DNA of 64,000 nt from Acidobacteriota bacterium (GTDB lineage Bacteria > Acidobacteriota > Vicinamibacteria > Vicinamibacterales > SCN-69-37): the NCBI GenBank assembly GCA_003242705.1, contig QGVF01000003.1, positions 1 through 64,000 of the forward strand. Reading direction: 5' to 3'. Positions 25,384 through 58,480 of this stretch are shown here, piece after piece. The notes below the pieces were generated by a model. It did no database searches. It saw only the letters and a program-made list of their open reading frames with translations, and had not been told where the DNA came from. The first letter of the stretch is position 1. Every line of letters begins with the position of its first letter. Made by a program: the position numbers and the translations under genes.

Positions 25384-26544
25384 TCAGGCCTGACCGGCAA
25401 TCCTGGTGTAGAGCGCGAGGTAGGCGTCGCGCACGGCGGCCGGTCCGAATCGGGCCGCGACGAGCGCGCGCGTGTCTTCGGTGGTTCGCCGCGGACGCTC
25501 GAGCGCGGCCGTCAGCTCCGCCGTCAGGCCGTCGACGTCGCCCCGAGGGACCACCCGGACATCCTGGCCGAACAGGGCGTGGAGTTCGACGCCGCCTGGA
25601 TGATCGGTTGAGACGACCGGCGTGCCCGCCGCGAGCGCCTCGACCGCCACGGTCGGCAGCGCCTCGAGATCGGACGGCAGCGCGAAGACGTCGGCGACGG
25701 CGGCGTAGCGCGCCACCTGGTCGTTCGGTACGAGGCCCGCGAAGGTGACGGCGTGGGCGATGCCTGCCGCCTCGGCGCGTGCCTCGAGCGTCACACGGAG
25801 CGGTCCGGTTCCGCAGAAGACAAGCCGGACGTCGCGGCGCACGGCGGCGATGCGCGCGAAGGCGTCGATCAGGTGATGCTGGCCGGCCAGCGGGTGCAGG
25901 CGCTTCACGTTGAGGACGACGTGCGGCTCGGCGATACCGAGCTCTCGCCGCCAGTGCTCGCGCGTGGCGTCGTCGACGACCCGGAAGGCGTCCGACACCG
26001 GAGGGTAGATCACGTGCAGCCCGTCGCGTTCGAGGCCGAGCTCCCGGGCGCGGTCGAGCAGGCGCTGACTGTAGAAGGTGACGGCGCGCGCATCGTGATA
26101 GGCGCGCGTGAAGGGGTCGAAGAGCGGCCGGCGTCGATAGTGCCAGATCTCGGTGCCGTAGAGCGTGAGCACCGTCGGGATGCCGCGCCGCTTCGCCCAC
26201 GCCGAGGCCACTTCGACGATGAGGCCGTTGCTGTGCAGGTGCACGATGTCGGCATTCCGCGCAACCTCGTCGAGCGCCGTCGTGATCGATCGCGTGCGGC
26301 GGAGCGTGTCGATGCGGAGCGCACGCAGCAGCGGCGACGACGAGCGGGCGCGCGTGCGGCGCACCGTGCCGGGCAGATCGGCCGCGTGGTCGCGACCCGC
26401 CGCGGTTCCCGTCTGTCCGCCTGCCTGAGTCACGAAAGCTACGTTGTGGCCGAGCTCGTGACTCCAGCGGCCGACGTGCGCGGGCAGCAGCGCGTTGGCG
26501 GCCTGATCCGGGGGCAGATGCGGCGAGACGTGACAGATGCGCAT
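25384..26544 (-). CDS. GT4-family glycosyltransferase
   Basis: 386 aa from the ATG at 26542-26544, sharing one base with the deacetylase stop (TGATG). GT-B fold: N-terminal half starts MRICHVSPHLPPDQAANALL; the C-terminal donor half has LNVKRLHPLAGQHHLIDAF, VPNDQVARYAAVADVFALPSDLEALPTVAVEALAAGTPVVSTDHPGG with the E-x7-E-like nucleotide-sugar motif (E...E in SDLEALPTVAVEAL). Predicted to use a nucleotide sugar in the cytoplasm to extend a lipid-linked or surface glycan. It is the last gene of a five-gene unit: GT-C, methyltransferase, GNAT, deacetylase, GT4. Confidence 0.88.
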   Translation of the reverse strand: MRICHVSPHLPPDQAANALLPAHVGRWSHELGHNVAFVTQAGGQTGTAAGRDHAADLPGTVRRTRARSSSPLLRALRIDTLRRTRSITTALDEVARNADIVHLHSNGLIVEVASAWAKRRGIPTVLTLYGTEIWHYRRRPLFDPFTRAYHDARAVTFYSQRLLDRARELGLERDGLHVIYPPVSDAFRVVDDATREHWRRELGIAEPHVVLNVKRLHPLAGQHHLIDAFARIAAVRRDVRLVFCGTGPLRVTLEARAEAAGIAHAVTFAGLVPNDQVARYAAVADVFALPSDLEALPTVAVEALAAGTPVVSTDHPGGVELHALFGQDVRVVPRGDVDGLTAELTAALERPRRTTEDTRALVAARFGPAAVRDAYLALYTRIAGQA

Positions 26545-27542
26545 CAGCAGGCGGGCTCTGCGGCCGCCGTCGCCCGACGCTCGAACCGGTCGGCGTACTC
26601 CACGAACGTCAGCGGCTCGGCGTTGAGCTCGGACATGGCGCGGGTGAGATAGCCGCCCAGCCGATCGAAGAAGGCCGCCACTTCGTCGTCGGTGCGGTTG
26701 TACGGGCTGCCGCCCGGGATCACTTCGCTCGAATGAAACAGCAGGTTCAGGATGGGCACGCCGCGCCGGACGAGCTGCCGCGACAGGCCCATCATGGCGT
26801 CGGCGGTCATGAAAGTCGGCCGGAGCGAGCGGACCGTGGCGATGCGCGCCAGCCGCAGCAGGCGCCGCGTGTGATACGGCCAGGGCGCGCGTCCATAGAG
26901 CCGCTCGATGGCGCGCGGCACGGTCCGGTCGAGCGCCGCCGAGACCGGCAGCTCGAGCACGCGGCTCGATCCGGGCGTCGTGGCCGAGTCGTACGCGAGA
27001 TAGTACGGATGCGCGGGCGCGTCGACGAAGTCGGGCCCGCCCTTGTGCGCCTCGTAGAAGAGCGGCGTGACGCTCGAATCGATGCGGTAGCCGTGCCGCT
27101 CGAGCGGCGCGACGTGCCGGGCGCAGAAGCCGAAGCGTCCCGAGCGATACGAGACGGGTGCGGTCCCGACGGCATCGGCGATGGCGGCGGTGAGCGAGTC
27201 GAGCTGCGCGTCGAACCGGTCGTCGGACAGCCACGACGCGTAGGGATGGCGGTCGACGTCTTCGGGCTCGAACGGCGGCGTTTCCCAGGCATGGTGATGC
27301 GCGCCGATCTCGCAGTCGCCGCGTGCCAGCAGCCGGCGCAGGACCGCCGCCGACTCGGGGTCGCGGACGACCGGATAGGTCACCACGTACGTCGGGCGCA
27401 CGCCGTGGCGCGCGAAGAAGTCGTGGAGCCGCTCGAGCTCGCGGGTGTTGCGGAACGTCTGGTGGCGGCGCGCTTCGGCGCTCCACTGGTTGTCGCCTTC
27501 GGTATCGATGGCGACGAGCAGCGCCGGACGGGCGATGGTCAT
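26544..27542 (-). CDS. WalW-like polysaccharide deacetylase family protein
   Basis: 332 aa from the ATG at 27542, overlapping the GNAT stop as ATGA. The fold is the NodB-type (beta/alpha) barrel: motif 1 as LLVAIDTEGDNQW (D13, E15), motif 2 as EIGAHHHAWETPPF (His 82-84, the H-x-H-x-W-x-T-P-P variant seen in WalW-like proteins), and motif 3 as YRSGRFGF. A later HSSEVIPGGSPYNR supplies a further conserved His. These enzymes remove N- or O-acetyl groups from sugars; the substrate is likely the glycan made by this cluster. Pairing with a GNAT acyltransferase suggests exchange of the acyl group on an amino sugar. Confidence 0.82.
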   Translation of the reverse strand: MTIARPALLVAIDTEGDNQWSAEARRHQTFRNTRELERLHDFFARHGVRPTYVVTYPVVRDPESAAVLRRLLARGDCEIGAHHHAWETPPFEPEDVDRHPYASWLSDDRFDAQLDSLTAAIADAVGTAPVSYRSGRFGFCARHVAPLERHGYRIDSSVTPLFYEAHKGGPDFVDAPAHPYYLAYDSATTPGSSRVLELPVSAALDRTVPRAIERLYGRAPWPYHTRRLLRLARIATVRSLRPTFMTADAMMGLSRQLVRRGVPILNLLFHSSEVIPGGSPYNRTDDEVAAFFDRLGGYLTRAMSELNAEPLTFVEYADRFERRATAAAEPAC

Positions 27543-28582
27543 CGGTCCTGATCGCTGTCGCCGAGCGTCACGTGCCAGGCCGCCGTCGAGTGGTAGAAGT
27601 CGGGCGGCACTTCGATCGCGTTGATCCGCGCGACGAAGTCCATCGTGGAACGCACCGGGAAGTAGCCCGAACGGCGCAGGAGGCGACGGAAGCCCTCGTG
27701 CGTGGCGAACGTGCGGATCTTGTCGGAATCGGCCGCGCGCGCCTCGCGGTCTACCCAGCGCAGCAGCGTCACGAAGCCAGACGTGTCGTCGGGATCGGCG
27801 AGGAAGTCGACGAGCAGCGTGACGCGCCCGCGCGGCTCCTGGACGTGGCGGTAGACGGCGTAGCCGGCCGGCTCGTTGTCGCGAACGAGCGCAGCGACGC
27901 TGTACCGGACGTGCGGCGGCTGGATGTACTTCCAGTTCAGGTACGGCGCATCGCGGCGCACGGCAAACCGGAACTTCGTCGCGATGCGCTCCCACAGCCG
28001 CGTGAAGCCCTCGTCGAAGTGGCGGATCATCCGGATCTCGCCTTCGAGCGGGCGCGTGCGGGCGACGAGCCGGATCCACGGCAGCGTGATGTAGGAGACG
28101 AACCGGTTGAGCTGCACCGGCCAGTTCGGGCGGCGCAGGGCGCGTCGGCTGAGCGGCTTGACGAGGCAGGGGACGGGGCCGACGTCGGGCCAGTTCAGCT
28201 TCTGGAACAGCCGGTACGACGACTCGGACAGACCGAGGCCGAGCGACGCCCCCGTGTGGCGGTCCCAGGTGCGGAAGAGCATGTCGCCGAGCCCCTGGCG
28301 CTGCCGCTCGGGTGCCACCATCACGTCCATGCCCCACGAGCCGTCGATGTCGCGACCGTCGATCGAGACGCGGACCGGCATCGTGGCGTACTGGCCGATG
28401 ACCGTCGTGCCTTCGCGCGCCAGCCAGATGAGCGGGCCGTCGGGCGGCATGTTCGGGTTGCGCCGGTACTGCCAGTCCCACCGCAGGCGGTTCGCGTCGG
28501 CCGCGTCGGATCCGAAGACCCGGCGGTAGAGCGACTCGACCTGGCGGCGGTCTTCGGAACGGAAGCGATCGATCTCGGCCAT
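27539..28582 (-). CDS. GNAT-family N-acyltransferase
   Basis: 347 aa. The N-terminal half holds a GNAT fold with the acyl-CoA loop VAPERQRQGLGDMLF (Q94-R-Q-G-L-G99) and the following helix. The C-terminal half (about 180-347) looks like a second, degenerate GNAT-like domain (VAALVRDNEPAGYAVYRH), so this is a double-GNAT layout like that of Fem/peptidoglycan-type or glycolipid acyltransferases. It sits between a methyltransferase (33 bases upstream) and the deacetylase (4-bp overlap), arguing for sugar or lipid N-acylation. Substrate unknown. Confidence 0.78.
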   Translation of the reverse strand: MAEIDRFRSEDRRQVESLYRRVFGSDAADANRLRWDWQYRRNPNMPPDGPLIWLAREGTTVIGQYATMPVRVSIDGRDIDGSWGMDVMVAPERQRQGLGDMLFRTWDRHTGASLGLGLSESSYRLFQKLNWPDVGPVPCLVKPLSRRALRRPNWPVQLNRFVSYITLPWIRLVARTRPLEGEIRMIRHFDEGFTRLWERIATKFRFAVRRDAPYLNWKYIQPPHVRYSVAALVRDNEPAGYAVYRHVQEPRGRVTLLVDFLADPDDTSGFVTLLRWVDREARAADSDKIRTFATHEGFRRLLRRSGYFPVRSTMDFVARINAIEVPPDFYHSTAAWHVTLGDSDQDR

Positions 28583-28615: not shown

Positions 28616-29452
28616 TCAGCCGGCGGCCAGCACGTATTCGATATTACTGATCAGGATGTCCTGCGTCAGGGCGCTGTCGCGGATCCAGCGGGCAATCGGC
28701 CCGGGCAGCCGGCGCACCGTCGAAGTCACGTGCAGTTCTTCGCGCACGACAGTCAGTCCGGCCTGCGCGATCTGCCGCCGCAGGCGCGAGACGCGCACCT
28801 TTTCGAGCAGGTCGTCGACCTTGTCGATTCCCCGCTGCGCGTCACGGATGAACGAGTTCTCGTGCGCCGGCTCACGGAGCGTCCAGGGGGCATGACGGGC
28901 CAGCAGCTGGAAGGTGCGGAATGCCACGCGCCGGCCGGCAATCAGGTGCAGCGGCAGGGGAATCCGCAGCCGCGGCAGGTGCGCGCCGGCAAACGACAGA
29001 TACGGCGCGGTCGACAGGTACATCCGTCCGCCGGGACGCATGACCCGCCGGCACTCGCGCAGGTAGAGCGGGGCATCGGCCACGTGCTCGATGACAGCGT
29101 GCGAGAGCACGAGATCGAACGCCCCGTCGGCAAACGGCAGTGCCATGCCATCGGCCTGCGCGAAGTGCAGGTTGTGCAGGCCACGCTCCCGCCCGAGCAC
29201 GACGCCCGCCTCGCTGAAGCGGTCGATCGGGTCGATGCCGACGACCATCGCGGCATGCTCGGCGAGCGACAGCGGCATGCCTCCGCCGCCGCACCCGGCA
29301 TCGAGCACCCGGCCTTCGATCGACACGCCCGCACGATCCAGGAACGCGATGACCTTGGCGCTCCGGTAGTACTCGAACAGCGCGTAGTCGTATTCGGAAC
29401 GGAACCGGGTGTCGGCGTGCGCCTTGATGAGGTCGGGTCTAATCTCGCGCAT
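28616..29452 (-). CDS. Class I SAM-dependent methyltransferase
   Basis: 278 aa. Motif I GRVLDAGCGGGGMPLSL (SAM-binding glycine loop), acidic residue after strand 2 (GIDPIDRF), motif with DGAFDLVLSHAVIEHV (motif III), and MRPGGRMYLSTAP (post-III), the type-11 layout. The C-terminal 100 residues form a cap that probably fixes the acceptor. Likely O-methylates a sugar or lipid of the glycan cluster. It overlaps the upstream GT-C gene by 14 bp and so is probably co-translated with it. Confidence 0.85.
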   Translation of the reverse strand: MREIRPDLIKAHADTRFRSEYDYALFEYYRSAKVIAFLDRAGVSIEGRVLDAGCGGGGMPLSLAEHAAMVVGIDPIDRFSEAGVVLGRERGLHNLHFAQADGMALPFADGAFDLVLSHAVIEHVADAPLYLRECRRVMRPGGRMYLSTAPYLSFAGAHLPRLRIPLPLHLIAGRRVAFRTFQLLARHAPWTLREPAHENSFIRDAQRGIDKVDDLLEKVRVSRLRRQIAQAGLTVVREELHVTSTVRRLPGPIARWIRDSALTQDILISNIEYVLAAG

Positions 29453-31166
29453 GCGCCGGGAACGACTCGGGAAACTTGTCGATGAGCACCGCGCGCTCCT
29501 CGCCGCGCGCTTCTTCGACGGGGAAGGTGGCCACGACCCGCCACCCGGGATAGTGGTCGAGGATGCCCTGGATCAGGCCCGAGCCATCCGAGCTCTCGTA
29601 GCCGATCCGCGGCAGGTCGTAGGTCAGTATATAGCGCACGTCGTCGCGGTCGAGTCGGTCGTCGTAGTTGCCGAACCCGTTGCCGATGAAAAGCGGGCGG
29701 ATCCCGTTCTCGAGCGACATGCCGTTGGCGAGCTTGCCCTGCACGAGCGTCCCTGGCTCGAGCAGCCGACCGAGGGCGATTGAGGCCTGATGGTTGTAGA
29801 ACGTGCGTGTGGCCGCCCACGTCCCGAACTGCCACACGTGCCAGAGGGCAGCCACCGTGACGAGCAGCTTCATGGCGGCCGGCGCCACCGTGCGGCCGGC
29901 GAGCCAGCGCAGCGCCGCCCGGCCGCGCCAGACGAGCAGCAGGATGACCGTCGCCGCCAGAGCTGCGCTGAGCCGAACCGCCGTCGACAGCTGGCCGGCC
30001 TCGATCGACGTCGTCAGCCAGGGACGGACGAAACTGCCGGCCAGCACATAGGCCAGCAGCGGCAGGGCGAGCGCGGCGGGCAGCAGCTGCAGGCCCTTTC
30101 GCGCTCCGACGACGCCAAACGGTGGCGTGCGCGCCGCGAGCAGCAGTGAGGCAAGCGCGATCAGCGCCGGAATGAACATCACGTACCGTCGCTCGTTCCC
30201 GGAGTCGTGCACGACGAGCTCGACGAGGCCGACGAGAATCCAGAGGACGAGAAGCCGCTCGGCCGACGGTGCCGTCCGCCAGCGGACGAGAATCGCCACG
30301 CAGGCGACGATGCCGGCGGTCAGCTCGACGAGCATGCTGCTGAACAGACCCTGGACGATCGGCAGCCACGTGGCGCGATCGACGAGGGCCCCGAGCGTGT
30401 ACGAAGGCTTGCGCGTCACGCTCATCTGCCAGTTGTAGAAGCGATATTCGTCCCACCAGGGCAGGACGAAAGCGGCCGCCACGAGCAGCGCGCCGCCGAT
30501 CAGGCCGGCCGCCCCGGCGCCCACCCGCAGCATCGCGTGGCGCCGCCCGAGCGTCGCGCTCTGCCAGCCGATCCACGCGGCGACGGCCAGCTCGAGGCCG
30601 AACGCCGCGATGAAGAACGCCGCAGCCGCCTTGGTGAAGAACGCCGCGACCGCCGCCAGTCCGGCCAGCACGCCCCAGGCCGGTCGCCGCTCCGCCAGCG
30701 TCCAGGCCATCCACGCGAGCACGAGGCAGGCGGTCATGGTCGATTCCATGAGCGCCGCCCGGTTCCACATGACGAACGGGTAGTTGACGCCGAGCAGTAC
30801 GGCGCCGACGACGGCCGCGCGTCGGCCGGCCAGCGCCTGCAGGGCGATGGCGATGGCGATGATGGCTGCCAGGCCCGACAGGGCGGGGACGATGCGTGCC
30901 TGCCAGGTGCCGACGCCGAGCAGCTCGAACGCGGCGTATTCCAGCGCCGTGAAGACCGGCGCGACGAAGACGGGGTTCCACTCGTCGGTGCGCCAGACGT
31001 CCCACAGCGCCGCGTTGCGCGCGTTGTGCACCCACGCGCCTTCGTCGTGCCAGACGATGCCGACCGCGCGCCGGACGGGCGGGTCGGCCGTCAGCCAGAC
31101 GCCTCGCAGCACGGCCGAGGCGGCCAGGATGACGAGCAGCACCACGAGGAAGGAGCGGAGGTTCAC
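29439..31166 (-). CDS. GT39/ArnT-like membrane glycosyltransferase
   Basis: 575 aa from the GTG at 31166 (a TTG at 31178 would add four residues); neither start has a clear ribosome site. About 11-12 membrane spans. The first external loop carries the GT-C acidic pair D41-E42 in VWHDEGAWVHNAR, followed by the typical LxxG helix. The C-terminal soluble part (about 490-575, DRDDVRYILTYDLPRIGYESS) is a small periplasmic domain. Enzymes of this type transfer sugar from polyprenyl phosphate to protein or lipid at the outer face of the inner membrane. First gene of the 31-25 kb unit and divergent from a polyprenol-phosphate sugar synthase (31293), a likely donor maker. Confidence 0.78.
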   Translation of the reverse strand: MNLRSFLVVLLVILAASAVLRGVWLTADPPVRRAVGIVWHDEGAWVHNARNAALWDVWRTDEWNPVFVAPVFTALEYAAFELLGVGTWQARIVPALSGLAAIIAIAIALQALAGRRAAVVGAVLLGVNYPFVMWNRAALMESTMTACLVLAWMAWTLAERRPAWGVLAGLAAVAAFFTKAAAAFFIAAFGLELAVAAWIGWQSATLGRRHAMLRVGAGAAGLIGGALLVAAAFVLPWWDEYRFYNWQMSVTRKPSYTLGALVDRATWLPIVQGLFSSMLVELTAGIVACVAILVRWRTAPSAERLLVLWILVGLVELVVHDSGNERRYVMFIPALIALASLLLAARTPPFGVVGARKGLQLLPAALALPLLAYVLAGSFVRPWLTTSIEAGQLSTAVRLSAALAATVILLLVWRGRAALRWLAGRTVAPAAMKLLVTVAALWHVWQFGTWAATRTFYNHQASIALGRLLEPGTLVQGKLANGMSLENGIRPLFIGNGFGNYDDRLDRDDVRYILTYDLPRIGYESSDGSGLIQGILDHYPGWRVVATFPVEEARGEERAVLIDKFPESFPAHARD

Positions 31167-31292
31167 GTCGGTTCGCAAAGCGTGCCGGCCCGTGCGGAAG
31201 GCCCCGACACTCTAGCAGACGTGCGGTGCGCGGCGACGCGCGGCGGCCGCAGAGGCGTCGAGCCGTTGATTTATAGTGCTGCGGTGACTTCG

Positions 31293-32069
31293 ATGCGTCG
31301 CCCGGATCTCAGCATGGTCGTGCCGACGTACAACGAGCGCGACCGGCTCGCCGAGCTCACCGATGCCCTGTTTACGGCGGCCGACGCCGCCGGCCTCGAT
31401 CTCGAACTGATCGTCGTTGACGACAACTCGCCGGACGGGACCGGCCAGCTGGCCGACGAGCTCGCGAAGACGCGGCGGATGCAGGTCGTGCACCGGTCGG
31501 GCAAGCTGGGGCTCGGCACGGCCGTCGTCGCCGGCTTCGGCGTGGCGCTGGCCGACGTGGTCGGGGTGATGGATGCCGACTTCAGCCATCCGCCGGCGCT
31601 CGTGCCGAAGATGATGGCGGTCTTCCGGGCCACCGATGCCGACGTGCTCGTCGCGAGCCGGTACATTCCCGGCGGCAGCACGCCGAACTGGCCGCTCAAG
31701 CGGCGCCTGCTGTCGCGCGTCGGCTGCCTGCTGGCGAGCGGGCTGTCGCCCATCCGCGACGCGGCCTCCGGCTTCTTCCTCATCCGGCGCGACATTGCCG
31801 AAGGGGTCGTGATCAAGGCCGGCGGCTTCAAGATCTGCATCGAGCTGATCGTTCGCGGCCGGCCGGGGCGCCTCGTCGAGATTCCCTACCAGTTCGACGA
31901 CCGTGAGCTGGGCGAGAGCAAGATGAGCCTGCGAGAAGCCGCCGGCTACCTCGTGCAGCTCAAGGATCTCTACGTGCTGCGCTTCCGCAACCGCGACCGG
32001 CCGCGCCCGGTTTACTACCAGCAGCTCACGCACCGCGACGTCGAGCGGATTGTGCAGTACGGGGCCTAG
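31293..32069 (+). CDS. GT2 polyprenol-phosphate glycosyltransferase (DPM1-like)
   Basis: 258 aa from the ATG at 31293; a GTG at 31284 is possible and would coincide with the predicted start of transcription from TATAGT (31272-31277). GT-A fold: MVVPTYNERDRL, VVDDNSPDGTG, D-x-D-like MDADFSHPPALVPKM, SRYIPGGSTPNWPLKRRLLSRVG, and DAASGFFLIRRD, all close to dolichol/polyprenol-phosphate mannose synthases. No C-terminal membrane helices are seen. It would load a hexose from a nucleotide sugar onto undecaprenyl phosphate. The only plus-strand gene in the glycan region, divergent from the GT-C enzyme at 29439. Confidence 0.85.
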   Translation: MRRPDLSMVVPTYNERDRLAELTDALFTAADAAGLDLELIVVDDNSPDGTGQLADELAKTRRMQVVHRSGKLGLGTAVVAGFGVALADVVGVMDADFSHPPALVPKMMAVFRATDADVLVASRYIPGGSTPNWPLKRRLLSRVGCLLASGLSPIRDAASGFFLIRRDIAEGVVIKAGGFKICIELIVRGRPGRLVEIPYQFDDRELGESKMSLREAAGYLVQLKDLYVLRFRNRDRPRPVYYQQLTHRDVERIVQYGA

Positions 32070-32518: not shown

Positions 32519-32604
32519 TCCCCGGGCAGCCGGGGGCGGCGCCGTTTCAGGCGCCGCGGCCCGGGGCAAGGGGATGTGTCGCGCGCGCCGCTCAGGCGGC
32601 GCGC
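32519..32604 (-). terminator. Two GC-rich hairpins after the radical SAM gene (possible terminator)
   Basis: CCCCGGG (32519-32525) pairs with CCCGGGG (32560-32566), enclosing GCGGCGCC-GTTTCA-GGCGCCGC (32536-32557). A second inverted repeat, GCGCGCCG-n6-CGGCGCGC (32583-32604), spans the stop codon of the radical SAM gene. There is no U-tract on either strand, so termination is only possible, not shown. Confidence 0.45.
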
Positions 32605-34076: not shown

Positions 34077-34086
34077 CACAGCGACA

Positions 34087-50453: not shown

Positions 50454-51568
50454 CAGGATGCGGGGGCCTGCGCCGGGGCGGTGAAGCTGCGAACCGCCGA
50501 GGCGACCAGGTCCGCATCAGTATCGGTCAGGTCGGGGTGAAGCGGCAGCGACAGCACCTCGCTGCACACGCGATCGGCCACCGGGCAGCTCTCCGGCCGC
50601 GCGATGCCGGCGAGTGCCGGCTGGCGCGGAATCGGCACCGGATAATGCACCAGCGTGCCGATGCCCGCCTGCTGCAGGTGAGCCGTGAGCGCCTCGCGCT
50701 GACGGCTCAGGATCGGAAACAGGTGGTAGACGTGCCCCGCGTCGCACTCGGAAGGCACGATGACCGGCGCCCCAGCGAGCGCCCGGCGGTATCGGGCCGC
50801 CAGTGCGCGGCGCCGCGCGTTCCGCCCGGCCAGAAACGGCAGGCGTGCACGGAGCACCGCCGCCTGGATCTCGTCGAGCCGGCTGTTCCAGCCGGGCTCG
50901 ACGTGATGGTAGCGATCGCTCTGTCCGCCGTTCCGCAGCCGTCGCAGCTTCGCGGCCAGCGACGCGTCGTCGGTCGTGACGGCGCCTGCATCGCCAAGCG
51001 CGCCGAGGTTCTTCGTCGGATAGAAGCTGTAGGCCGCCGCGATGCCGAAGCTGCCGACGGGACGTCCCCCGCAGGTGGCCAGGTGCGCCTGGCAGCAGTC
51101 TTCGACCATGGCCAGGCCGTGCCGATCGGCGAGGGCCTGCAGGCGCGGCATGTCGGCGGGCTGGCCGTACAGGTGCACCGGCACGATTGCGGCGGTGCGT
51201 GGCGTGACGGCGGCCTCGACGGCCGCGGGATCGATCGTGAGCCGGATCGGGTCGACATCGGCGAAGACCGGCGTCGCCCCGGTATGGAGAATCGCGAGGG
51301 CAGTGTAGGCGGCCGAGAGCGGCGTCGTGATGACTTCGTCGCCCGGGCCGATGCCGAGCGCGCGCAGCGCGAGGGCGATCGCGTCGGTCCCGGAGCCGAC
51401 GCCGACGGCGAAGGCCGAGCCGGTGGCCGTGGCGAACTCGACTTCGAACGCTTCGAGCTCGGGGCCGAGGATGAACCAGCCGCTGCGGATGACGCGATCG
51501 ATCTCAGCGCGGATCGCCGGTTCGTCGCCGCGCGGCTCGAGCGTCATGAACGGCACGCGCACGGTCAT
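50453..51568 (-). CDS. DegT/DnrJ/EryC1/StrS sugar aminotransferase
   Basis: 371 aa, ATG at 51568. The PLP lysine is K186 in SFYPTKNLGALGDAGAV; AVGVGSGTDAIALALRALG binds the phosphate, VEDCCQAH carries the PLP-stacking Asp, and NSRLDEIQAAVLRARLP is typical. It moves an amino group (usually from glutamate) to a keto-sugar nucleotide, giving an amino sugar. It is the obvious source of an amino sugar for the deacetylase/GNAT pair at 26-28 kb. One base separates it from the GT2 gene downstream. Confidence 0.93.
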   Translation of the reverse strand: MTVRVPFMTLEPRGDEPAIRAEIDRVIRSGWFILGPELEAFEVEFATATGSAFAVGVGSGTDAIALALRALGIGPGDEVITTPLSAAYTALAILHTGATPVFADVDPIRLTIDPAAVEAAVTPRTAAIVPVHLYGQPADMPRLQALADRHGLAMVEDCCQAHLATCGGRPVGSFGIAAAYSFYPTKNLGALGDAGAVTTDDASLAAKLRRLRNGGQSDRYHHVEPGWNSRLDEIQAAVLRARLPFLAGRNARRRALAARYRRALAGAPVIVPSECDAGHVYHLFPILSRQREALTAHLQQAGIGTLVHYPVPIPRQPALAGIARPESCPVADRVCSEVLSLPLHPDLTDTDADLVASAVRSFTAPAQAPAS

Positions 51569-51569: not shown

Positions 51570-52367
51570 TCAGCAGCGCGGGTCGTGCAGAGCCGGGGCG
51601 GCCGCCATCGACCGGTGCCGACGGAGCACGACGAGCTCGACCCAGAGCCTGGCCACGTCGACGGCCGTTCTCACGAGGCGCGGCACGTTGAAGAACTGCG
51701 ATCGGCCGAACGCCCGGTGATAGTGGTGGACGGGAACCTCGGCGATCCGGAATCCGGCGTCCTGCACCTTCTTCATCAGCTCCAGGCAGATGACGCCGCT
51801 GTCGTGCTCGAGCCGGATGCGATCGAAGATCGACCGCCGCATCAGCCGGAAGTCGCAGTCGACGTCGCGGACGCGCAGGCCGAACAGGACCTTCACCGTG
51901 TGGTGGTAGATGCGCCCGATCACGATGCGGTGCCACGGGTCGGATCGGCTGATCTTGTACCCGTTCACCAGATCGACGTCGTCGCCGAGCCGCGCCCAGA
52001 GCCGTGCGACCTCGCTCGGGTCGTATTGCCCGTCGCCGTCGGTGTAGAAGACGAGCTCCCTGGATGCATGCGCGAAGCCGCTGCGCAGCGCGCCGCCGTA
52101 GCCGCGGTTCTTCGCGTGGTGAATCGCCCGCACCTCCGGGTACGTGCGCGCCAGCTCGTCGACGATCTCGGCCGTGTTGTCGGCGCTGCCGTCGTTGACC
52201 ACGAGGATCTCGAAGTCCGGCGTCAGCTGCAGGGCCGCCTGCCGCGCGGCAATCACCAGGCTGGCGATCGTTCCGCTGTCGTTGTAGGCAGGGAAGAAGA
52301 TGGTGAGGCCGGGTGGCGGCTTCGGGGTGGCTGCAGCTGTCATGGCGCGGACCGAAGAACCTACCAT
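51570..52367 (-). CDS. GT2 glycosyltransferase (polyprenol-phosphate sugar type)
   Basis: 265 aa from the ATG at 52367 (GGCAGG directly before it); an ATG at 52343 gives 257 aa. GT-A fold: LTIFFPAYNDSGTI, ILVVNDGSADNTAEI, FYTDGDGQYDPSEV (D-x-D-like metal site), DVDCDFRLMRRSIFDRI. No C-terminal membrane helices. Resembles dolichol-phosphate mannose synthase-like bacterial enzymes. Likely makes a polyprenyl-phosphate sugar used by the GT-C proteins just downstream. Ten bases separate it from the GT4 gene. Confidence 0.83.
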   Translation of the reverse strand: MVGSSVRAMTAAATPKPPPGLTIFFPAYNDSGTIASLVIAARQAALQLTPDFEILVVNDGSADNTAEIVDELARTYPEVRAIHHAKNRGYGGALRSGFAHASRELVFYTDGDGQYDPSEVARLWARLGDDVDLVNGYKISRSDPWHRIVIGRIYHHTVKVLFGLRVRDVDCDFRLMRRSIFDRIRLEHDSGVICLELMKKVQDAGFRIAEVPVHHYHRAFGRSQFFNVPRLVRTAVDVARLWVELVVLRRHRSMAAAPALHDPRC

Positions 52368-52377
52368 CCTGCCCGGG

Positions 52378-53607
52378 CTACGACAAGGGCAGATCGGCCG
52401 TCGCTACGTCGTATGCGGCTTCGATCCGTTCGGCGACGCGGGCCCAGCCGAAATTGCGCTCCACGTGCGCGCGCGCGGCCGTCCCGAGGCGGCGCGCCAT
52501 GTCCGGATCACCCGCCAGGCGCTCGATGGCGTCGGCGAGTGCACGCGCGTCCTTTTCCGGGACGAGCAGGCCCGTCGTGCCGTCATCGATGGCCTGCGGC
52601 AGGCCGCCGACGCGTGAGGCCACGACCGGCGTGCCCGAAGCGAGCGCCTCGAGGGCGAAGTTCGGCAGTCCGTCGACGTTGCCGAACTCGTCATGCACCG
52701 AGGGCACGGCGACCACGTCGGCCGCCGCGCAGAGCTCGGCCACGGCGTCCTGTGACCGGTTGCCGAGGAGCATCACGCCCGGCAGGTCGCCGGCAAGGCG
52801 CGTCAGCTCGTTGCGCAGGTCGCCGTCACCGGCGATCGCCACGACGAGATCGGGTCGGCGCGTCTGCAGGAGGCGCGCGGCCTCGATCAGGACGTCGAAA
52901 CCCTTCTTGCGCACGAGGCGCCCGGCCGAGACCACGAGCGGACGGGTGCCGATTCCGAGCTCGGCCCGGACACGCTCGCGCGCGTCGGCCGACGGTGCGA
53001 ACCGTTCGGTGTCGACGCCGTACGGCACCGTCTCGGTTCGCGCCGCGCTGGCGCCGAGCGCGATGGCGCGCGTGCGGAGATCGTCGCTGCAGGCGGTCAC
53101 ATAGCGCGCGCGCCTGAAGACGCGCCGGGCGACCCTGCCGACGAGCCCGTGGCGCTCGGCGACGTACACGTCGGAACCATGCAGGCTGAGAACGAGCGGC
53201 CGACGACCTGCCGCCAGCGCGGCAATCACGCCGCCCGGTACGACCCAGTGTCCGTGCATGACGGTGGCGCGCTTCTTCTGCGCCACACGCAGTGCCTTGA
53301 ACCAGCCCGCCGCGAGCGCCGCCGGCGTGGCGCACCAGGCGGCAAGCTTCAGGTCGGTGTCGGCCCGCAGGCCCTGTGCGTAGCCGAAGACGTTGAGCGA
53401 CGCGACGGGCGCGTACTTGAAGAAGTGGAAGTGGACGCCCCGCTCGACGCGTCCCCGGCGGATGGCCGGGTGCCACGGGGCCACGAGGTGCACTTCGTGG
53501 CCGCGGGCGGCGACCGACGTGGCAATCGGCTCCATGAAGCTCCCGACGCCGTCGCCCGGAAACCGGGGATACGACGTCGCGACCATCACGACGACGTGCC
53601 GGCTCAC
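52378..53607 (-). CDS. GT4-family glycosyltransferase
   Basis: 409 aa, GTG start overlapping the GT2 stop (GTGA). GT-B fold: MVATSYPRFPGDGVGSFMEPIATSVAARGHEVHLVAPW, VLSLHGSDVYV, VPYGVDTERFAP, VVSAGRLVRKKGFDVLIEAARLL, and the donor motif VPSVHDEFGNVDGLPNFALEALASGTPVVASRVGGLPQ with E-x7-E. Cytoplasmic nucleotide-sugar transferase for a glycan or lipid acceptor. Together with the GT4 at 57437 and GT4 at 25384 it is one of three such enzymes here. Confidence 0.92.
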   Translation of the reverse strand: MSRHVVVMVATSYPRFPGDGVGSFMEPIATSVAARGHEVHLVAPWHPAIRRGRVERGVHFHFFKYAPVASLNVFGYAQGLRADTDLKLAAWCATPAALAAGWFKALRVAQKKRATVMHGHWVVPGGVIAALAAGRRPLVLSLHGSDVYVAERHGLVGRVARRVFRRARYVTACSDDLRTRAIALGASAARTETVPYGVDTERFAPSADARERVRAELGIGTRPLVVSAGRLVRKKGFDVLIEAARLLQTRRPDLVVAIAGDGDLRNELTRLAGDLPGVMLLGNRSQDAVAELCAAADVVAVPSVHDEFGNVDGLPNFALEALASGTPVVASRVGGLPQAIDDGTTGLLVPEKDARALADAIERLAGDPDMARRLGTAARAHVERNFGWARVAERIEAAYDVATADLPLS

Positions 53608-54326
53608 GAGGGACTCCGCCGTAGGCGCCCGCCGCGCAGGACGAGGCGCCAGGGCGTCCAGAGCGATTCGGCGAGGACCTTCTGCGAGACCTTCGAGTAG
53701 CCCTCCTGCCGCTCGACGAACACGATGGGGACCTCGCCGATGCGGCAGCCGTGACGCGCCGCCTCGTACAGCATTTCGGTCAGGAAGGCGTAGCCGTTGG
53801 CGCGGGCGCGCTGCAGCGGCAGCTTCGCCAGCGCGTCGCGCCGCCAGACGCGGAAGCCACTGGTACAGTCGCGCGGCGCCAGTCCCGTCACGAACCGGAT
53901 ATAGCGGTTCGCGAAGGCGCTCAGCATGATGCGGTGCAGCGGCCAGTTGATGACGCTGACGCCCTGCAGGTACCGCGATCCAATCACCAGGTCGTAGTGC
54001 TCGAGTGCTTCGACGAGCGACGGAATGTAGGAGGGATCGTGCGACAGGTCCGCGTCCATCTGTCCGATGGCGTCGGCATCGGATGCGAGTGCCCGACGCA
54101 GGCCGTCAACGTAGGCAAGGCCGAGACCCCGCGGCCCCCGGCGGTGGAAGACCTCGATCCGCCCGGGCCACCTCGCGGCCAGTTCCTCGGCCAGCTCTCC
54201 TGTCCCGTCCGGCGACTCGTCGTCGACCACGAGGAGCCGCGTGTACGGGTGCTGCATGACACCTTCGGCGACGCGGGTGAGGTTGAGCCGTTCGTTGTAG
54301 GTCGGAAGAACGATGAGCAGGGTCAT
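53604..54326 (-). CDS. Polyprenol-monophosphate mannose synthase-like GT2
   Basis: 240 aa from the ATG at 54326, an ATGA overlap with the GT-C gene. Strong resemblance to bacterial Ppm1/DPM1 catalytic domains: LIVLPTYNERLNLTRV, VVDDESPDGTGELAEEL, GQMDADLSHDPSYIPSL, SRYLQGVSVINWPLHRIMLSAFANRYIR and DCTSGFRVWRRDAL. It lacks membrane helices, as does the single-domain form in other bacteria. It transfers mannose (or another hexose) to polyprenyl phosphate, the direct donor for GT39/GT-C enzymes such as the partner encoded just upstream. Confidence 0.9.
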   Translation of the reverse strand: MTLLIVLPTYNERLNLTRVAEGVMQHPYTRLLVVDDESPDGTGELAEELAARWPGRIEVFHRRGPRGLGLAYVDGLRRALASDADAIGQMDADLSHDPSYIPSLVEALEHYDLVIGSRYLQGVSVINWPLHRIMLSAFANRYIRFVTGLAPRDCTSGFRVWRRDALAKLPLQRARANGYAFLTEMLYEAARHGCRIGEVPIVFVERQEGYSKVSQKVLAESLWTPWRLVLRGGRLRRSPS

Positions 54327-55570
54327 GCACGCGGCGGCTGGCGGAAGGTGGCCAGGCCGGCCCCCGCAAGGATAACAAGGGCCGGATCGATGATGGGAAT
54401 CCGGAACCGCTCCTGTGGGAAGAACACGAGGGCGACGAGCACCGACGACCCGACGAGGAGCCAGAGTCCCTGCAGCCGTCCCAGATCGCGCCGGCACCGG
54501 ACGATGCCGAGACCACCCAGGGCGAGCACCGTGAGGTACGAGAGCACCGACGCGGCCAGGTAGCGCGGCGAGTGGAGCGTGTACGACGGGCCGGCCGGCA
54601 CGATCAGGTAGAAGGCCTTGCGGAGCTCGAGCACGATCCAGTCGACGGGATGCTCGACAATCCAGCGGAGCGCCTCGCGGTAGTACACCGGTTCGAGCTC
54701 CTCTTCGCCAAGGTCCGGATAGGCGGCGCGGAGCCGCTGGTTATCCAGCTTGATGGCCGGATTGGCCGCCATGTCGCCGTCGCCCGTCGCCAGCGGGTGG
54801 TTGCCCGTCCAGAACGTGACGCCGCCCTCGGTCGCCACGAACACGAGCCGGTCGTAGTGGAAATAGTTGCGAATGGTCCACGGACCGACGACGGCGGCGC
54901 ATGCCGCGAGCAGGACGACGAGCACCGGCCAGCGGCGGCGCCACAGCAGGAACAGCGCCGCCAGCGGCACGAACAGCACAAGGGCCGGCCGGACGAGAAT
55001 GCCGGCGCCGAGCAGGGCACCGCAGAGAGCCGCGCGGCCGGCCGCGTGTGGGGCATCGAGCGCGCGATCGAACAGCAGGGCGACGGCCAGCCCCATCGGC
55101 CAGAAGAGCGCTTCGCTGAAGGCGTACCCGGCAATCCAGACGAGCGGCGGATAGACGGCTGTGCCGAAGGCCGCGAACACGGCCGCGCGGCGACCGCCGA
55201 GCCGACCTGCCAGCAGTCCGGCCAGCACGACCCCCAGCGCGCCGGTCAGCGCCTGCGCCGCCCGCACGGCGGCCGGCACCGACGAGACAGGCGCCGCCCC
55301 GCCGCCGACGCGCGCGAGAAACGCCGGAAAGCCCGGCGCGCGGCCGAACGGCTCGGCCCCGGTCGCTGTCAGCGTTTCGTCGTAGACGAAGCCGTCGCCG
55401 CGCGCAAGGCTGCGCGCAAGCGACAGGTACTCGTGCTCGTCGCGCGTCAGCGGCTGATCGACCCAGTAGCCGAAGGCGAAGAGCAGCCGGGTGGCGCAGC
55501 CGACGACCGCCGCGATCGCGAGCAGCCGCCACGGAGCGACGGCGCGCGTCCGATCGCTAGCGGCGTCCAT
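54323..55570 (-). CDS. GT39-like membrane glycosyltransferase
   Basis: 415 aa from the ATG at 55570 (14-bp overlap with the GT2 stop). About 10-11 membrane spans. The acidic pair D44-E45 is in LTRDEHEYLSLARSLARGDGF, matching GT39-type transferases well, and GREAFGRAPGFPAFLA-like residues follow. IEVTFWTGNHPLATGDGDMAANP-like polar loop (about 265-290) lies outside. Next to a Ppm1-like synthase that would supply its polyprenyl-phosphate sugar. Acceptor (protein, lipid or glycan) unknown. Confidence 0.78.
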   Translation of the reverse strand: MDAASDRTRAVAPWRLLAIAAVVGCATRLLFAFGYWVDQPLTRDEHEYLSLARSLARGDGFVYDETLTATGAEPFGRAPGFPAFLARVGGGAAPVSSVPAAVRAAQALTGALGVVLAGLLAGRLGGRRAAVFAAFGTAVYPPLVWIAGYAFSEALFWPMGLAVALLFDRALDAPHAAGRAALCGALLGAGILVRPALVLFVPLAALFLLWRRRWPVLVVLLAACAAVVGPWTIRNYFHYDRLVFVATEGGVTFWTGNHPLATGDGDMAANPAIKLDNQRLRAAYPDLGEEELEPVYYREALRWIVEHPVDWIVLELRKAFYLIVPAGPSYTLHSPRYLAASVLSYLTVLALGGLGIVRCRRDLGRLQGLWLLVGSSVLVALVFFPQERFRIPIIDPALVILAGAGLATFRQPPRA

Positions 55571-56420
55571 CGATGCGCTGCGCCGACACCTGCTCCGACA
55601 CCAGGCCGACGAGCACGATGACAACGGCGAGAAGGATCAGCAGCACGGACGAGTCGGTCACGTCGTGCCGGGTCGCGATCGTCCACGCGGCATAGAGCGC
55701 ACCGGCCGCGAAGAACACGCCGGCAACGGGCAGGAAGACGCGCAGCGGGCTGAAGATCGTCATCACGCGGAGCATGATGAGCAGGAACTTCGGCCCGTCG
55801 GTCGACAGTCTGATCTTCGACGGCGTGCCGACGCGCTGCTTCGCCTTGATCGGTTCGAAGGCGACGTTGTAACCGGCGCGCAGGAAGCAGAGCGTCGTGG
55901 TCGTCGGCGTCGAGAAGCCGTTGGGCAGCAGCGGCAGGAACTCGCGCAGGCAGTCGAGCCGCGCGGCGCGGAAGCCCGACGTCAGGTCGGGAATCGGATG
56001 CTCGGTCAGGTACGACGCCAGCCGGTTGAGCACCTCGTTGCCGAGCCGGCGGATCGTGTTCGCCTGCGTCTCGCTCGAACGCGCACCGACCACCAGGTCG
56101 TACTCGCCCAGCTTTTCCACGAGCCTGACGGCGTCGGCCGGCTGGTGCTGGCCGTCGGCGTCGATGATGAGCAGATGTTCGCCCGTCGCCGCGCGGATGC
56201 CGGTCTTGACGGCCGCGCCGTTGCCCTTGTTGTAGGGATGGCGGATCACCCGCGCGCCGGCCTCGCCGGCCACGGCAGCCGTCCCGTCGGTCGATCCGTC
56301 GTCGACGACGATGATCTCGTGCCAGTCGGCGACGCTGCGCAGACCGCGGACGACGTCGCCGATGGCGGCGGCTTCGTTCATCGCGGGAATGACGACCGAG
56401 ACGGTCGCGGGCGTGGCCAT
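55557..56420 (-). CDS. Membrane-anchored GT2 (polyprenol-phosphate sugar synthase type)
   Basis: 287 aa. GT-A domain: VSVVIPAMNEAAAIGDVV, EIIVVDDGSTDGTAAV, LIIDADGQHQPADAVRL (D-x-D) and DLTSGFRAARLDCL. The C-terminal 80 residues form two membrane helices (FSPLRVFLPVAGVFFAAGALYAAW and SSVLLILLAVVIVLVGLVSEQ) as in GtrB/DPM1-type enzymes. It charges polyprenyl phosphate with a sugar at the inner face of the membrane. Fifteen bases after the related GT2 at 56436. Confidence 0.87.
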   Translation of the reverse strand: MATPATVSVVIPAMNEAAAIGDVVRGLRSVADWHEIIVVDDGSTDGTAAVAGEAGARVIRHPYNKGNGAAVKTGIRAATGEHLLIIDADGQHQPADAVRLVEKLGEYDLVVGARSSETQANTIRRLGNEVLNRLASYLTEHPIPDLTSGFRAARLDCLREFLPLLPNGFSTPTTTTLCFLRAGYNVAFEPIKAKQRVGTPSKIRLSTDGPKFLLIMLRVMTIFSPLRVFLPVAGVFFAAGALYAAWTIATRHDVTDSSVLLILLAVVIVLVGLVSEQVSAQRIDGRR

Positions 56421-56435: not shown

Positions 56436-57416
56436 TCAGGAAGCGCCGTCGCCCGATCGACTGTCGCGGCGCGGCCCCTCGAGCTCCATGCGCCGGACAC
56501 GGTACACCAGATCCTCGAGCAGCTTCCGGTTTCCCGAGATGACGTCGGCAAGCAGGCCGATGAGGACCACCTGGAAGCCCACGATCATCAGGACCGCCGA
56601 CAGGATCAGCGACTGGATCATGCCGGGGACGTAGGCCGTCGTCAGGTAGTAGTAGAGGAAGCGGAGCGAGATGGCGACGCCGCACAGGAAGACGAACCCG
56701 CCGATGTAGGTGAAGACCTTCAGCGGCTCGTACATCGCGTAGATACGGACGATGGTCGCGCCCGACTGCTTCAGGTACGACCAGATGCTGTCGAACAGGC
56801 GCGACGGCCGCGTGCGCGGGTTGGTCGCCACTTCGACGTGCGCGATCGCCATGCGCCGCTTGCCGGCCTGGATGATCGATTCGAGGGTATACGAGAACTC
56901 CGAGACGATTGTCATCTTGAGCGCCGCTTCGCGCGTGTAGGCGCGGAAGCCGCTCGTCGTGTCGGGCACCTTCGTGTTCGACACCTGCCTGACGACCCAG
57001 CTGCCGATCCGCTGCAGGATCTTCTTGGGGAACGACATGTGCTGGATGGTCCGGATATTCCGGTCGCCGATGACGATCTCGGCCTCGCCGTCGAGCAGCG
57101 GCCTCACCAGCGCGGCAATGTCGCGGCCGGCGTACTGGTTGTCGGCATCCGTGTTGACGATGATGTCGGCGCCGGCGCGCAGGCTCGCGTCGATGCCCGC
57201 CATGAAGGCGGCGGCGAGACCCTTGTGGCGCCGCAGCCGCACGACGTGGTGCACGCCGTGCGCGCGCGCCACGTCGGCCGTGCCATCGGTCGAGCCGTCG
57301 TCGATGACGAGGATTTCGATCGTGTCGATGCCGGGGATCTCGCGCGGCAGGTCGGCCAGCGTGCGCGGCAGCGTGTCCGCCTCGTTGAGGCACGGAATCT
57401 GGATGATGAGCTTCAT
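56436..57416 (-). CDS. Membrane-anchored GtrB-like GT2
   Basis: 326 aa. GT-A domain: LIIQIPCLNEADTLPRTLADLP, ILVIDDGSTDGTADV, IIVNTDADNQYAGRDIAAL (D-x-D), VPDTTSGFRAYTREAAL. Two C-terminal helices (FTYIGGFVFLCGVAISLRFLYYYL and MIQSLILSAVLMIVGFQVVLIGLLADV) anchor it, the GtrB layout. Predicted polyprenyl-phosphate glucose or mannose synthase. It is 20 bases after the GT4 gene and paired with a second membrane GT2, so two lipid-sugar donors are probably made side by side. Confidence 0.88.
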   Translation of the reverse strand: MKLIIQIPCLNEADTLPRTLADLPREIPGIDTIEILVIDDGSTDGTADVARAHGVHHVVRLRRHKGLAAAFMAGIDASLRAGADIIVNTDADNQYAGRDIAALVRPLLDGEAEIVIGDRNIRTIQHMSFPKKILQRIGSWVVRQVSNTKVPDTTSGFRAYTREAALKMTIVSEFSYTLESIIQAGKRRMAIAHVEVATNPRTRPSRLFDSIWSYLKQSGATIVRIYAMYEPLKVFTYIGGFVFLCGVAISLRFLYYYLTTAYVPGMIQSLILSAVLMIVGFQVVLIGLLADVISGNRKLLEDLVYRVRRMELEGPRRDSRSGDGAS

Positions 57417-57436
57417 GTACGTCGAGCGCGCCGCGC

Positions 57437-58480
57437 CTACAGGCCCTCCACGAGCCGTTCGATGGCCGCCGACCAGGTGATGCGGCGCGCCAGTTCATAG
57501 CCGGCCTCGCCCAGCCGCGCCGCCCGCGTCCGGTCGCCGTGCAGATCGGCAAGCGCCGCGCCGAGCGCCTCGGGCTGCGGTTCGGTAACCCGCCCGTTCA
57601 CGCCGTCGATGACGAAGCGCGTCGGCTCACCGGCGTCAGTCGTGGTGACGACCGGCTTGCGCGCGAGGAACGCCTCGAGCGTGACATAGCCCAGATCTTC
57701 GTCGAACGGCGGGAAGATCACCGCCAGCGCCTCCGCATACAGTTCGAGCAGCGTCTCGTCGTCGACTTCGCCGAGGAACTGCACGCGCCGGCTGAGCCCG
57801 AGATCGGCGGCCAGCCGCTCGAACGCCTCACGCTGCGTGCCGGTGCCCGCGATGATCAGCCGCAGATCCGGCGGTCCGGCAGCCAGCGCTCGAATCGAAA
57901 GGTCGACGCGCTTGACCGACTCGAGCCGCCCGACCGACAGCACATAGTCGCCGGCCGGCCCCGACCGCAGCCGCGACGCCAGCCGCGGAGGATGATACAG
58001 CGCCTCGGACGACAGACCGTTGTAGCGCGCCAGCCGCGCGCTGACCGTGTGCGCAATCGTGAACAGTGCGCGCGACTCGGCCAGCATCTCCGTGTCGAGC
58101 GCGATGATCCGGTCGCGGACCGCCACGTCGAGGCTGCGATGCTCGAATTCGCTGAAGGCCGTGTCGACCAGCTCGTACGCCGCCCGGTACTGGTGGACGA
58201 GCCAGGTGACCTTGTCGGGGTGGCGTACGAAGTAAGTCGGAAACTTCGTGGCGATGACCCGGTCGATCCGGCGTCCTGAGCTCTCACTCAGGTCGAGCAG
58301 CCGCCACGCGGCAGCGTGCGCGAACAGCTCCTCGAGCGGGTACCACTTGAACGGGACGCTCACCAGGTCGGCGTCGTAGCCGTGAAGCCGCAGCTGGGCC
58401 ACCAGCTCCCGCACGAGCGACTCGGCCCCGCCCCGGATGAACGGGACCTGGGCCTCACAAACAAGGATGCGTCTGCTCAT
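57437..58480 (-). CDS. GT4-family glycosyltransferase
   Basis: 347 aa from the ATG at 58480; longer starts give a basic Pro-rich tail. GT-B fold: ILVCEAQVPFIRGGAESLVRELVAQLRLHGYDADLVSVPF, VLSVGRLESVKRVDLSIRAL, LIIAGTGTQREAFERLA, and the donor motif VIFPPFDEDLGYVTLEAFLARKPVVTTTDAGEPTRFV with E-x7-E (E in FDEDLGYVTLEAF). First gene of the minus-strand run that continues to 32592; its promoter must lie in the 155 bases before mraZ's own promoter. Confidence 0.9.
   Translation of the reverse strand: MSRRILVCEAQVPFIRGGAESLVRELVAQLRLHGYDADLVSVPFKWYPLEELFAHAAAWRLLDLSESSGRRIDRVIATKFPTYFVRHPDKVTWLVHQYRAAYELVDTAFSEFEHRSLDVAVRDRIIALDTEMLAESRALFTIAHTVSARLARYNGLSSEALYHPPRLASRLRSGPAGDYVLSVGRLESVKRVDLSIRALAAGPPDLRLIIAGTGTQREAFERLAADLGLSRRVQFLGEVDDETLLELYAEALAVIFPPFDEDLGYVTLEAFLARKPVVTTTDAGEPTRFVIDGVNGRVTEPQPEALGAALADLHGDRTRAARLGEAGYELARRITWSAAIERLVEGL

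Follow-up and report, generated by a model that had tools for sequence, protein, structure and literature searches.

In archaea and eukaryotes, lipid-linked oligosaccharides are assembled by cytoplasmic glycosyltransferases (GTs), a flippase, DPM1/AglJ-like synthases and GT-C proteins that act outside the membrane. In bacteria, the published excerpt on the Citrobacter GT136 system describes one pathway with a polyprenyl-phosphate sugar synthase, a MATE flippase, a GT-C and an epimerase (PMC11127046). By analogy, and as far as that excerpt goes, this three-component pathway is the closest described mechanism for the glycan locus analysed here, which lies in a window of 64,000 bases (bases 1-64000 of contig C48, itself 65,414 bases long) from a genome of the order Vicinamibacterales. 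These common soil bacteria are a mostly uncultured group of Acidobacteriota. From sequence comparison, the chance is about even that the window contains a locus for assembling an envelope glycan, found repeatedly at a single site in the order, with an oligosaccharide that would be primed elsewhere, flipped, and extended or decorated outside the membrane. The direct observations are the gene families, their tight spacing, a fixed site beside division genes, and five genes (GT2e, GTC6, GT4b, GT9 and X) that occur together there in the relatives examined. Among the matches listed for literature on Vicinamibacterales surface glycans (open-licence titles and abstract openings), none deals with those glycans and none names the locus. 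Its recurrence at one site in many families provides a defined gene set for probing what these cells display, and lets one ask whether a glycan can be built, not merely decorated, by GT-Cs that use lipid-phosphate sugars.

Genomes and comparisons

The host genome comprises 3.49 Mb in 207 contigs, of which C48 makes up 1.9%. Gene families were assigned by Pfam and NCBIfam scans with curated cut-offs, and solved structures by comparison with the PDB. The labels GT2a-e, GTC1-6, GT4a-c, X and sec are working names coined for this locus. Site comparison was anchored on rsmH, which was matched in 40 of 40 genomes; the mraZ side was examined in 23 of 39 relatives from the order, a hand-picked, non-random set in which matches to GTC1-6 were counted at E <= 1e-5. 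A larger order-wide sample held 149 genomes (GTC6 at E <= 1e-20, GT2e at E <= 1e-60).

The locus and its gene content

The locus is flanked by mraZ-rsmH on one side and by yqeY-murJ on the other (Table 1). Twenty-one minus-strand genes run from 58480 down to 32592. Their junctions range from -37 to +37 bases and include five 4-base overlaps, and the genes are predicted to form one operon; operon status was assigned to the gene groups of the locus because of their tight spacing. This predicted operon contains nine of the 11 GT2 and GT-C genes, and its order is GT4c, GT2e, GT2d, GTC6, GT2c, GT4b, GT2b, DegT, GTC5, GTC4, GTC3, GT9, X, SDR, a radical SAM/SPASM enzyme, a putative secreted protein, a methyltransferase, the Wzx/MATE-type flippase, GTC2, another radical SAM/SPASM enzyme and a B12-type radical SAM enzyme. 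A Dabb protein gene follows 92 bases past the last of these. Toward yqeY and murJ, a second group comprises GTC1, a methyltransferase, a GNAT acetyltransferase, a deacetylase-like protein and GT4a, and GT2a (31293) points the other way, on the plus strand.

A preliminary description of this DNA had reported five DPM1/GtrB-type GT2s interleaved with six polytopic GT-C proteins. That observation is confirmed, and the interpretation attached to it is partly supported. All five GT2s pass the PF00535 cut-off, and five of the GT-C proteins match PMT_2, the sixth (46597) having only a weak NF047440 match. The interleaved positions hold as well, except that the plus strand carries the GT2 at 31293 and that starts shift for GTC3, GTC4 and GT2c (adjusted to 46600, 47931 and 54326; further start positions used are 40080, 39269, 27542, 26544 and 58480). 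The inventory stands for the GT2/GT-C set and left unmentioned a Wzx/MATE-type flippase, three GT4s, a GT9, the GT-B-like X, three radical SAM enzymes and DegT. A GT87 protein (7646-8806) that had been counted with the set is excluded as a locus member, since it lies 14 kb past murJ with unrelated genes between. The reported lack of an initiating transferase or Wzy extends to the whole 65,414-base contig: Bac_transf (PF02397), Glycos_transf_4 (PF00953) and Wzy_C (PF04932) have four, two and six matches in the genome, respectively, and none on C48, and a Wzy without the last of these domains is possible. These three families were searched in the host's own genome and not in those of relatives. 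Genes just outside the window that would make this a standard Wzx/Wzy locus do not appear within the contig; in a relative from the window's genus (G001) the locus is closed by mraZ and by yqeY-murJ within a 415,853-base contig. No Wza-type outer-membrane channel or Wza/Wzz turned up in scans of locus proteins, no genome search having been aimed at them.

Among curated families and structures, the nearest to the five GT2s include ArnC, AglJ, PgfS, GtrB sll0501 (which we take to be a GtrB) and dolichol-phosphate mannose synthase; the structure comparison covered GT2c, GT2d and GT2e, and all NCBIfam scores of the GT2s are below curated cut-off. These matches are best read as family resemblance, which carries no information on the sugar used. 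For PMT_2, the 26.1-bit cut-off is passed by GTC1, GTC2 and GTC6, and GTC3 and GTC5 fall slightly under it as single proteins; GTC5 passes in a genome search (28.1 bits). The PMT_2 match of GTC6 recurs in 9 of 11 orthologues, and D44 and E45 are invariant in all 11. BLAST among the six GT-Cs (E <= 0.001) finds similarity only between GTC3 and GTC4. Contig C48 carries 5 of the genome's 15 PMT_2 genes (nominal binomial P 6e-6) and 5 of its 21 GT2 rows (4e-5), both values ignoring operon clustering; the 15 PMT_2 genes correspond to 16 rows, two of which are halves of one gene. Compared with a Gtr-like system, the locus contains a polyprenol-phosphate sugar synthase by homology and a GT-C transferase (three above and two just below the PMT_2 cut-off), and no GtrA match turned up in scans of its proteins. 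A Wzx-type flippase is provided by the protein at 37078-38595, which is of MATE/Wzx type and whose homology does not tell its cargo.

The mraZ site in relatives

Sites in the 23 relatives fall into 10 large, 8 small, 1 odd and 4 nearly bare. Nine genes (GT4c, GT2e, GT2d, GTC6, GT2c, GT4b, DegT, GT9 and X) are present in all ten large sites (G001, G003, where the site is split over two contigs, G008, G012, G017, G019, G025, G029, G036 and G039). Five of them, GT2e, GTC6, GT4b, GT9 and X, form a module found in 10/10 large sites and at none of the other 13. GTC5 occurs in nine large sites; in the tenth, G003, a GTC4 match stands where GTC5 would be. Large loci with a common gene order at the common site are spread over seven families (f1, f5, f7, f10, f11, f13 and f15). 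In eight further loci the order is GT4c-GT2e-GT2d-GTC6-GT2c-GT4b, and six of these continue with GT2b, DegT, GTC5, GT9 and X, the last being cut by the end of the fetched stretch.

All eight small sites (G002, G014, G016, G027, G028, G030, G033 and G037) keep two or three of GT2b, GT2c and GT2d and an extra SDR, often with DegT (7/8) and GNAT (5/8), and none has a match to GTC1-6 at the site. The odd site (G004) holds an extra SDR, DegT, a B12 radical SAM enzyme, GT2a, GNAT and the secreted protein. Of the nearly bare sites, that of G032 has no window gene between the boundaries, and those of G021, G026 and G035 have, of the window genes, only SDR and weak sec matches. The matches to sec thus persist at three sites that have none of the window's glycosyltransferases. 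G026, G035 and G032, with their nearly bare mraZ sites, carry a relocated cluster (L110-L115) near a gene that by eye is nqrA-like. It includes GT2e, GT4b, GTC5, GT9, GT2b and wzx in all three genomes, and GT4c, GT2d and DegT in G026 and G035; G032 has only a 35% GT2d-like match and no DegT. Ten further proteins of this cluster, picked mainly as polytopic, show no Wzy_C or Bac_transf.

In G036, an SGNH/AlgX-like and MBOAT O-acyltransferase pair lies between DegT and GTC5 (L062:10715-13226). BLAST finds relatives of it in the G001 and G012 loci, and no counterpart was noticed in the window; such a pair would fit an exported glycan. Separately, a YchF-type GTPase gene stands between mraZ and the glycan genes of G036 (L062:1511-2617, from Pfam) and is not seen in the window; such GTPases form one BLAST cluster of 13 relatives. 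In G033, a protein with seven transmembrane segments is encoded between yqeY and murJ.

Distribution and descent

Among the 149 genomes of the order, GTC6 occurs in 32 (two of them weak matches at 34-35% identity, G044 and G053), GT2e in 50 and GT2c in 103. Identity is just 51-55% for six of these 50 GT2e rows, which could represent paralogues. GTC6 is on the rsmH contig in 19 of its 32 genomes, own included, and is accompanied by GT2e in 30 and by GT2c in 28 (Fisher values ignore kinship); GT2e occurs without GTC6 in 20 genomes. GT2c is on the rsmH contig in 70 genomes, the two starts being separated by 1.5 to 9.1 kb; the remaining 33 either carry it on a different contig or gave no rsmH match. 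Of those 70 genomes, 52 have no GTC6 match. A DPM1-like GT2 is thus often encoded next to the division genes in this order, whose locus GT-Cs come and go. A flippase scan of the named genomes returned one locus.

The preliminary description had also suggested that each lipid-linked sugar is used by a dedicated transferase. A dedicated GT-C for each GT2 is rejected because 8 of 23 relatives keep two or three of GT2b, GT2c and GT2d at small sites that lack any match to GTC1-6, and because GT2e and GT2c also occur in genomes with no GTC6 match, including the 20 and the 52 above; GT-Cs elsewhere in such genomes could still serve those GT2s.

In a sample of 297 genomes from the phylum, X (E <= 1e-60) was found in at least seven, five inside the order and two outside (G342 and G160), with misses likely because the best 4 candidates per genome were scored. 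The 40 kb around X in G342 contain only deacetylase-like, methyltransferase, GT9-like and GNAT-like matches, and the 17 kb around X in G160 contain, of the other locus genes, only SDR. FastTree trees of 11 genomes, one from mraZ and rsmH and one from GT2e, GTC6, GT4b, GT9 and X, share two groups with support 1.0, namely the window's family (window, G001, G003, G008 and G012) and f5 (G017, G029 and G039); they disagree on the placement of G003 inside its family and on deeper branches. These trees support inheritance of the large form by descent within families and leave loss versus gain between families unsettled.

Table 1. Features of the locus and its boundaries, in order of position within the window.
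Feature	Position	Strand	Evidence
yqeY and murJ, left boundary	23086..25317	-	named from sequence; matches adjoin locus in relatives
GT4a, GT4 glycosyltransferase	25384..26544	-	PF00534 7.4e-31
Weak polysaccharide-deacetylase-like protein	26544..27542	-	PF01522 20.0 bits (cut-off 23.1)
GNAT acetyltransferase	27539..28582	-	PF13527 3.3e-8
Class I methyltransferase	28616..29452	-	PF08241 1.1e-22
GTC1, GT-C protein	29439..31178	-	PMT_2 5.7e-9
GT2a, polyprenol-phosphate-type GT2, divergent	31293..32069	+	PF00535 1.6e-30; PgfS 1.9e-17 (below cut-off)
B12-binding-type radical SAM enzyme, last operon gene	32592..34079	-	PF04055 8.3e-20; B12-binding 29.3 bits (cut-off 32.1)
Radical SAM/SPASM enzyme	34087..35313	-	PF04055 1.5e-17; PF13186 1.9e-10
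GTC2, GT-C protein	35313..37097	-	PMT_2 3.6e-10; STT3 0.0019 (below cut-off)
Wzx/MATE-type flippase	37078..38595	-	PF13440 1.8e-18; PF01943 8.7e-11
Class I methyltransferase	38559..39269	-	PF13489 4.8e-16
sec, putative secreted protein	39301..40080	-	no NCBIfam/Pfam match; N-terminus signal-like by eye; same place in relatives
Radical SAM/SPASM enzyme	40112..41059	-	PF04055 1.2e-19; PF13186 9.2e-16
SDR nucleotide-sugar epimerase/dehydratase	41067..42086	-	PF01370 1.5e-55
X, GT-B-like surface carbohydrate biosynthesis protein	42083..43891	-	TIGR04326 4.4e-21 (below cut-off); profile: UDP-GlcNAc 2-epimerase 7e-6, WaaG 4e-4
GT9, heptosyltransferase family	43888..45081	-	PF01075 1.6e-35; TIGR02195 7e-32 (below cut-off)
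GTC3, GT-C-like	45089..46600	-	PMT_2 9.2e-5, 23.1 bits (under 26.1-bit cut-off)
GTC4, polytopic GT-C-like	46597..47931	-	no Pfam match; NF047440 1.8e-8 (below cut-off); 25-29% similar to GTC3
GTC5, 841-aa GT-C-like, long C-terminal part	47928..50453	-	PMT_2 7.5e-5, 23.4 bits (under cut-off); NF047440 2.9e-9
DegT family sugar aminotransferase	50453..51568	-	PF01041 3.5e-114
GT2b, ArnC-like GT2, without hydrophobic segments (hydropathy)	51570..52367	-	PF00535 5.9e-28; PRK10714 3.4e-26 (below cut-off)
GT4b, GT4 glycosyltransferase	52378..53607	-	PF00534 5.5e-36
GT2c, DPM1-like GT2	53604..54326	-	PF00535 4e-26; dolichol monophosphate mannose synthase 5mlz 1.5e-30
GTC6, GT-C protein	54323..55570	-	PMT_2 1.2e-7
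GT2d, AglJ/ArnC-like, C-terminal hydrophobic segments	55557..56420	-	PF00535 2e-29; AglJ model TIGR04182 9.5e-41 (below cut-off); ArnC structures, N-terminal part
GT2e, GtrB-like polyprenol-phosphate-type GT2, C-terminal hydrophobic segments (hydropathy)	56436..57416	-	PF00535 3.5e-24; GtrB sll0501 residues 2-293, 1.8e-14
GT4c, GT4 glycosyltransferase, first operon gene, divergent from mraZ	57437..58480	-	PF00534 6.1e-30; ATG at 58480
mraZ and rsmH, right boundary	58636..60046	+	MraZ 1.1e-14; rsmH named from sequence

Proposed pathway and alternatives

If the locus assembles an envelope glycan, an enzyme encoded elsewhere would prime an oligosaccharide on polyprenol phosphate (the genome contains four Bac_transf genes and a WecA-like one), the GT4s, GT9 and the GT-B-like X would build the chain in the cytoplasm, and sugars would be tailored by the SDR, the aminotransferase, the methyltransferases and the radical SAM enzymes. 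The Wzx/MATE-type protein would flip the oligosaccharide, the GT2s would make several polyprenol-phosphate sugars that the GT-Cs would transfer onto the flipped chain outside the membrane, and a ligase encoded elsewhere would attach the chain, most likely to the core of lipopolysaccharide (LPS), although a protein or a lipid acceptor would be compatible with the gene content too. On the host's contig C111 (11.7 kb), WecA-like, Wzy_C and CapD-like genes lie side by side and offer candidates for the priming and ligation of a surface glycan. The WecA-like gene is one of the two Glycos_transf_4 matches of the genome; the other, on contig C33, is probably MraY, because it adjoins genes that by eye read as ftsW, murG and murC. 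A more far-reaching and rather doubtful extension is that the envelope glycan is old and differs from Wzy polymers: a flipped core would be extended outside by several GT-Cs from polyprenol-phosphate sugars, much as lipid-linked oligosaccharides are assembled, but in bacteria. Its genes would then be kept beside division genes and murJ because its supply would be tied to the shared polyprenol pool and cell division.

Several points weigh against an envelope-glycan assembly locus. The pathway steps are predictions from gene content, the primer and ligase elsewhere are only candidates, and Wzx homology cannot separate a lipid-PP-oligosaccharide from a lipid-P-sugar cargo. A wzx match (E <= 0.001) occurs in 20 of 40 genomes, own included, and in none of the other 20, and the large form is patchy, GTC6 being present in 32 of 149 genomes. 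GT2b is missing from the large locus of G003, the site of G004 has none of GT2b, GT2c and GT2d, the locus of G011 is otherwise large but has its GT2c in broken fragments (L126, 8095-8495 of the reversed stretch), and two of the eight further loci (G022 and G060) stop after GT4b. Those eight were chosen for GTC6 on the rsmH contig and so are no test of joint occurrence. The relocated cluster of G026, G035 and G032 is without GTC6, GT2c, X or SPASM enzymes, and the five module genes are therefore separable. Profiles of GTC6 and GTC2 found nothing among PDB chains at E up to 1, and AlphaFold models of GTC6 (single sequence) and GTC2 (two sequences) reached a predicted local distance difference test score of 45.7 and 40.1, respectively, too poor for use.

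Three other explanations were weighed. It is unlikely, in our estimation, that the locus serves periplasmic modification, in which the MATE-type protein would flip polyprenol-phosphate sugars, the GT-Cs would decorate a glycan made and exported by another locus, and the cytoplasmic GTs would have another purpose. All four kinds of component named for Citrobacter in the excerpt (synthase, MATE flippase, GT-C and epimerase; PMC11127046) are present here, but GT4b, GT9 and X accompany GT2e and GTC6 in 10/10 large loci of the first set, an indication that this locus makes the chain as well; moreover, GT2e resembles GtrB-type enzymes, to which the Citrobacter synthase has no similarity according to the same excerpt. 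We consider it quite unlikely that this is a conventional Wzx/Wzy locus for O-antigen or capsule, in which one of the polytopic proteins (e.g., GTC4) would be an unrecognised polymerase and the primer would be encoded elsewhere. Strong sequence variation of Wzy proteins, noted in the excerpt of PMC12502699, could hide a polymerase among the polytopic proteins, and a Wzx-type flippase, GT4 and GT9 enzymes and nucleotide-sugar genes agree with such a locus, as do matches, below cut-off, of GTC4, GTC5 and X to NCBI families named after Leptospira. The names of those families are presumably leptospiral locus names. Against this, the contig has no Wzy_C match, GTC4 shares 25-29% similarity with GTC3, itself PMT_2-like, and has a match in only one of the ten large relatives (G003), and gene order and site are common to seven families, unlike serotype loci, which are not known to show such constancy.

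Protein glycosylation, in which a lipid-linked oligosaccharide would be flipped and then moved to proteins by a GT-C acting as oligosaccharyltransferase, appears improbable. The layout is like that of N-glycan donor assembly, and GTC2, the best candidate, matches STT3 (0.0019) and archaeal STT3 (3.7e-4) weakly; however, both matches are far below curated cut-offs (for STT3, 18.2 bits against 24.5), so that no oligosaccharyltransferase was recognised, and no GTC2 match was noticed next to wzx in three of the large loci (G012, G036 and G062). Among these readings, assembly of an envelope glycan, primed elsewhere and extended or decorated outside, is the most likely.

Comparison with known systems

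The Arn pathway, which places 4-amino-arabinose on lipid A, shares with this locus a DegT aminotransferase, an ArnC-like GT2, a weak deacetylase-like protein, a PMT-like GT-C and an SDR. An Arn reading is nevertheless rejected: the ArnB model scores 213.9 bits against a cut-off of 631, ArnA, ArnB and ArnC scores are all far below cut-off, and Pfam scans of the locus proteins contain no ArnA formyltransferase domain. Among solved structures, DegT is nearer QdtB (3.4e-90) and WbpE (5.7e-79) than ArnB (5.6e-57). As QdtB and WbpE, which we take to have 3-keto specificity, outrank ArnB, the PDB ranking gives a hint of a 3-amino sugar; NCBIfam conflicts with this by placing PseC and ArnB first, below cut-off.

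Loci for Wzx/Wzy O-antigens and capsules are alike in their Wzx-type flippase, GT4 and GT9 enzymes, nucleotide-sugar genes and methyltransferases. They differ in that the present contig has no recognised primer or Wzy_C and that many GT-Cs and lipid-phosphate sugar synthases occur at a constant site and in a constant order in seven families. Archaeal and eukaryotic lipid-linked oligosaccharide assembly is alike in its cytoplasmic GTs, flippase, DPM1/AglJ-like synthases and GT-Cs, which act outside there and would do so here; the present locus differs in having no convincing oligosaccharyltransferase. Systems of the GtrABC or Citrobacter GT136 type are alike in combining a polyprenol-phosphate sugar synthase, a flippase, a GT-C and an epimerase; GT2e here is GtrB-like, unlike the Citrobacter synthase as the excerpt describes it (PMC11127046). 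In contrast to both types, five synthases, six GT-C-like proteins, one MATE/Wzx-type flippase and cytoplasmic GTs are here brought together in one locus.

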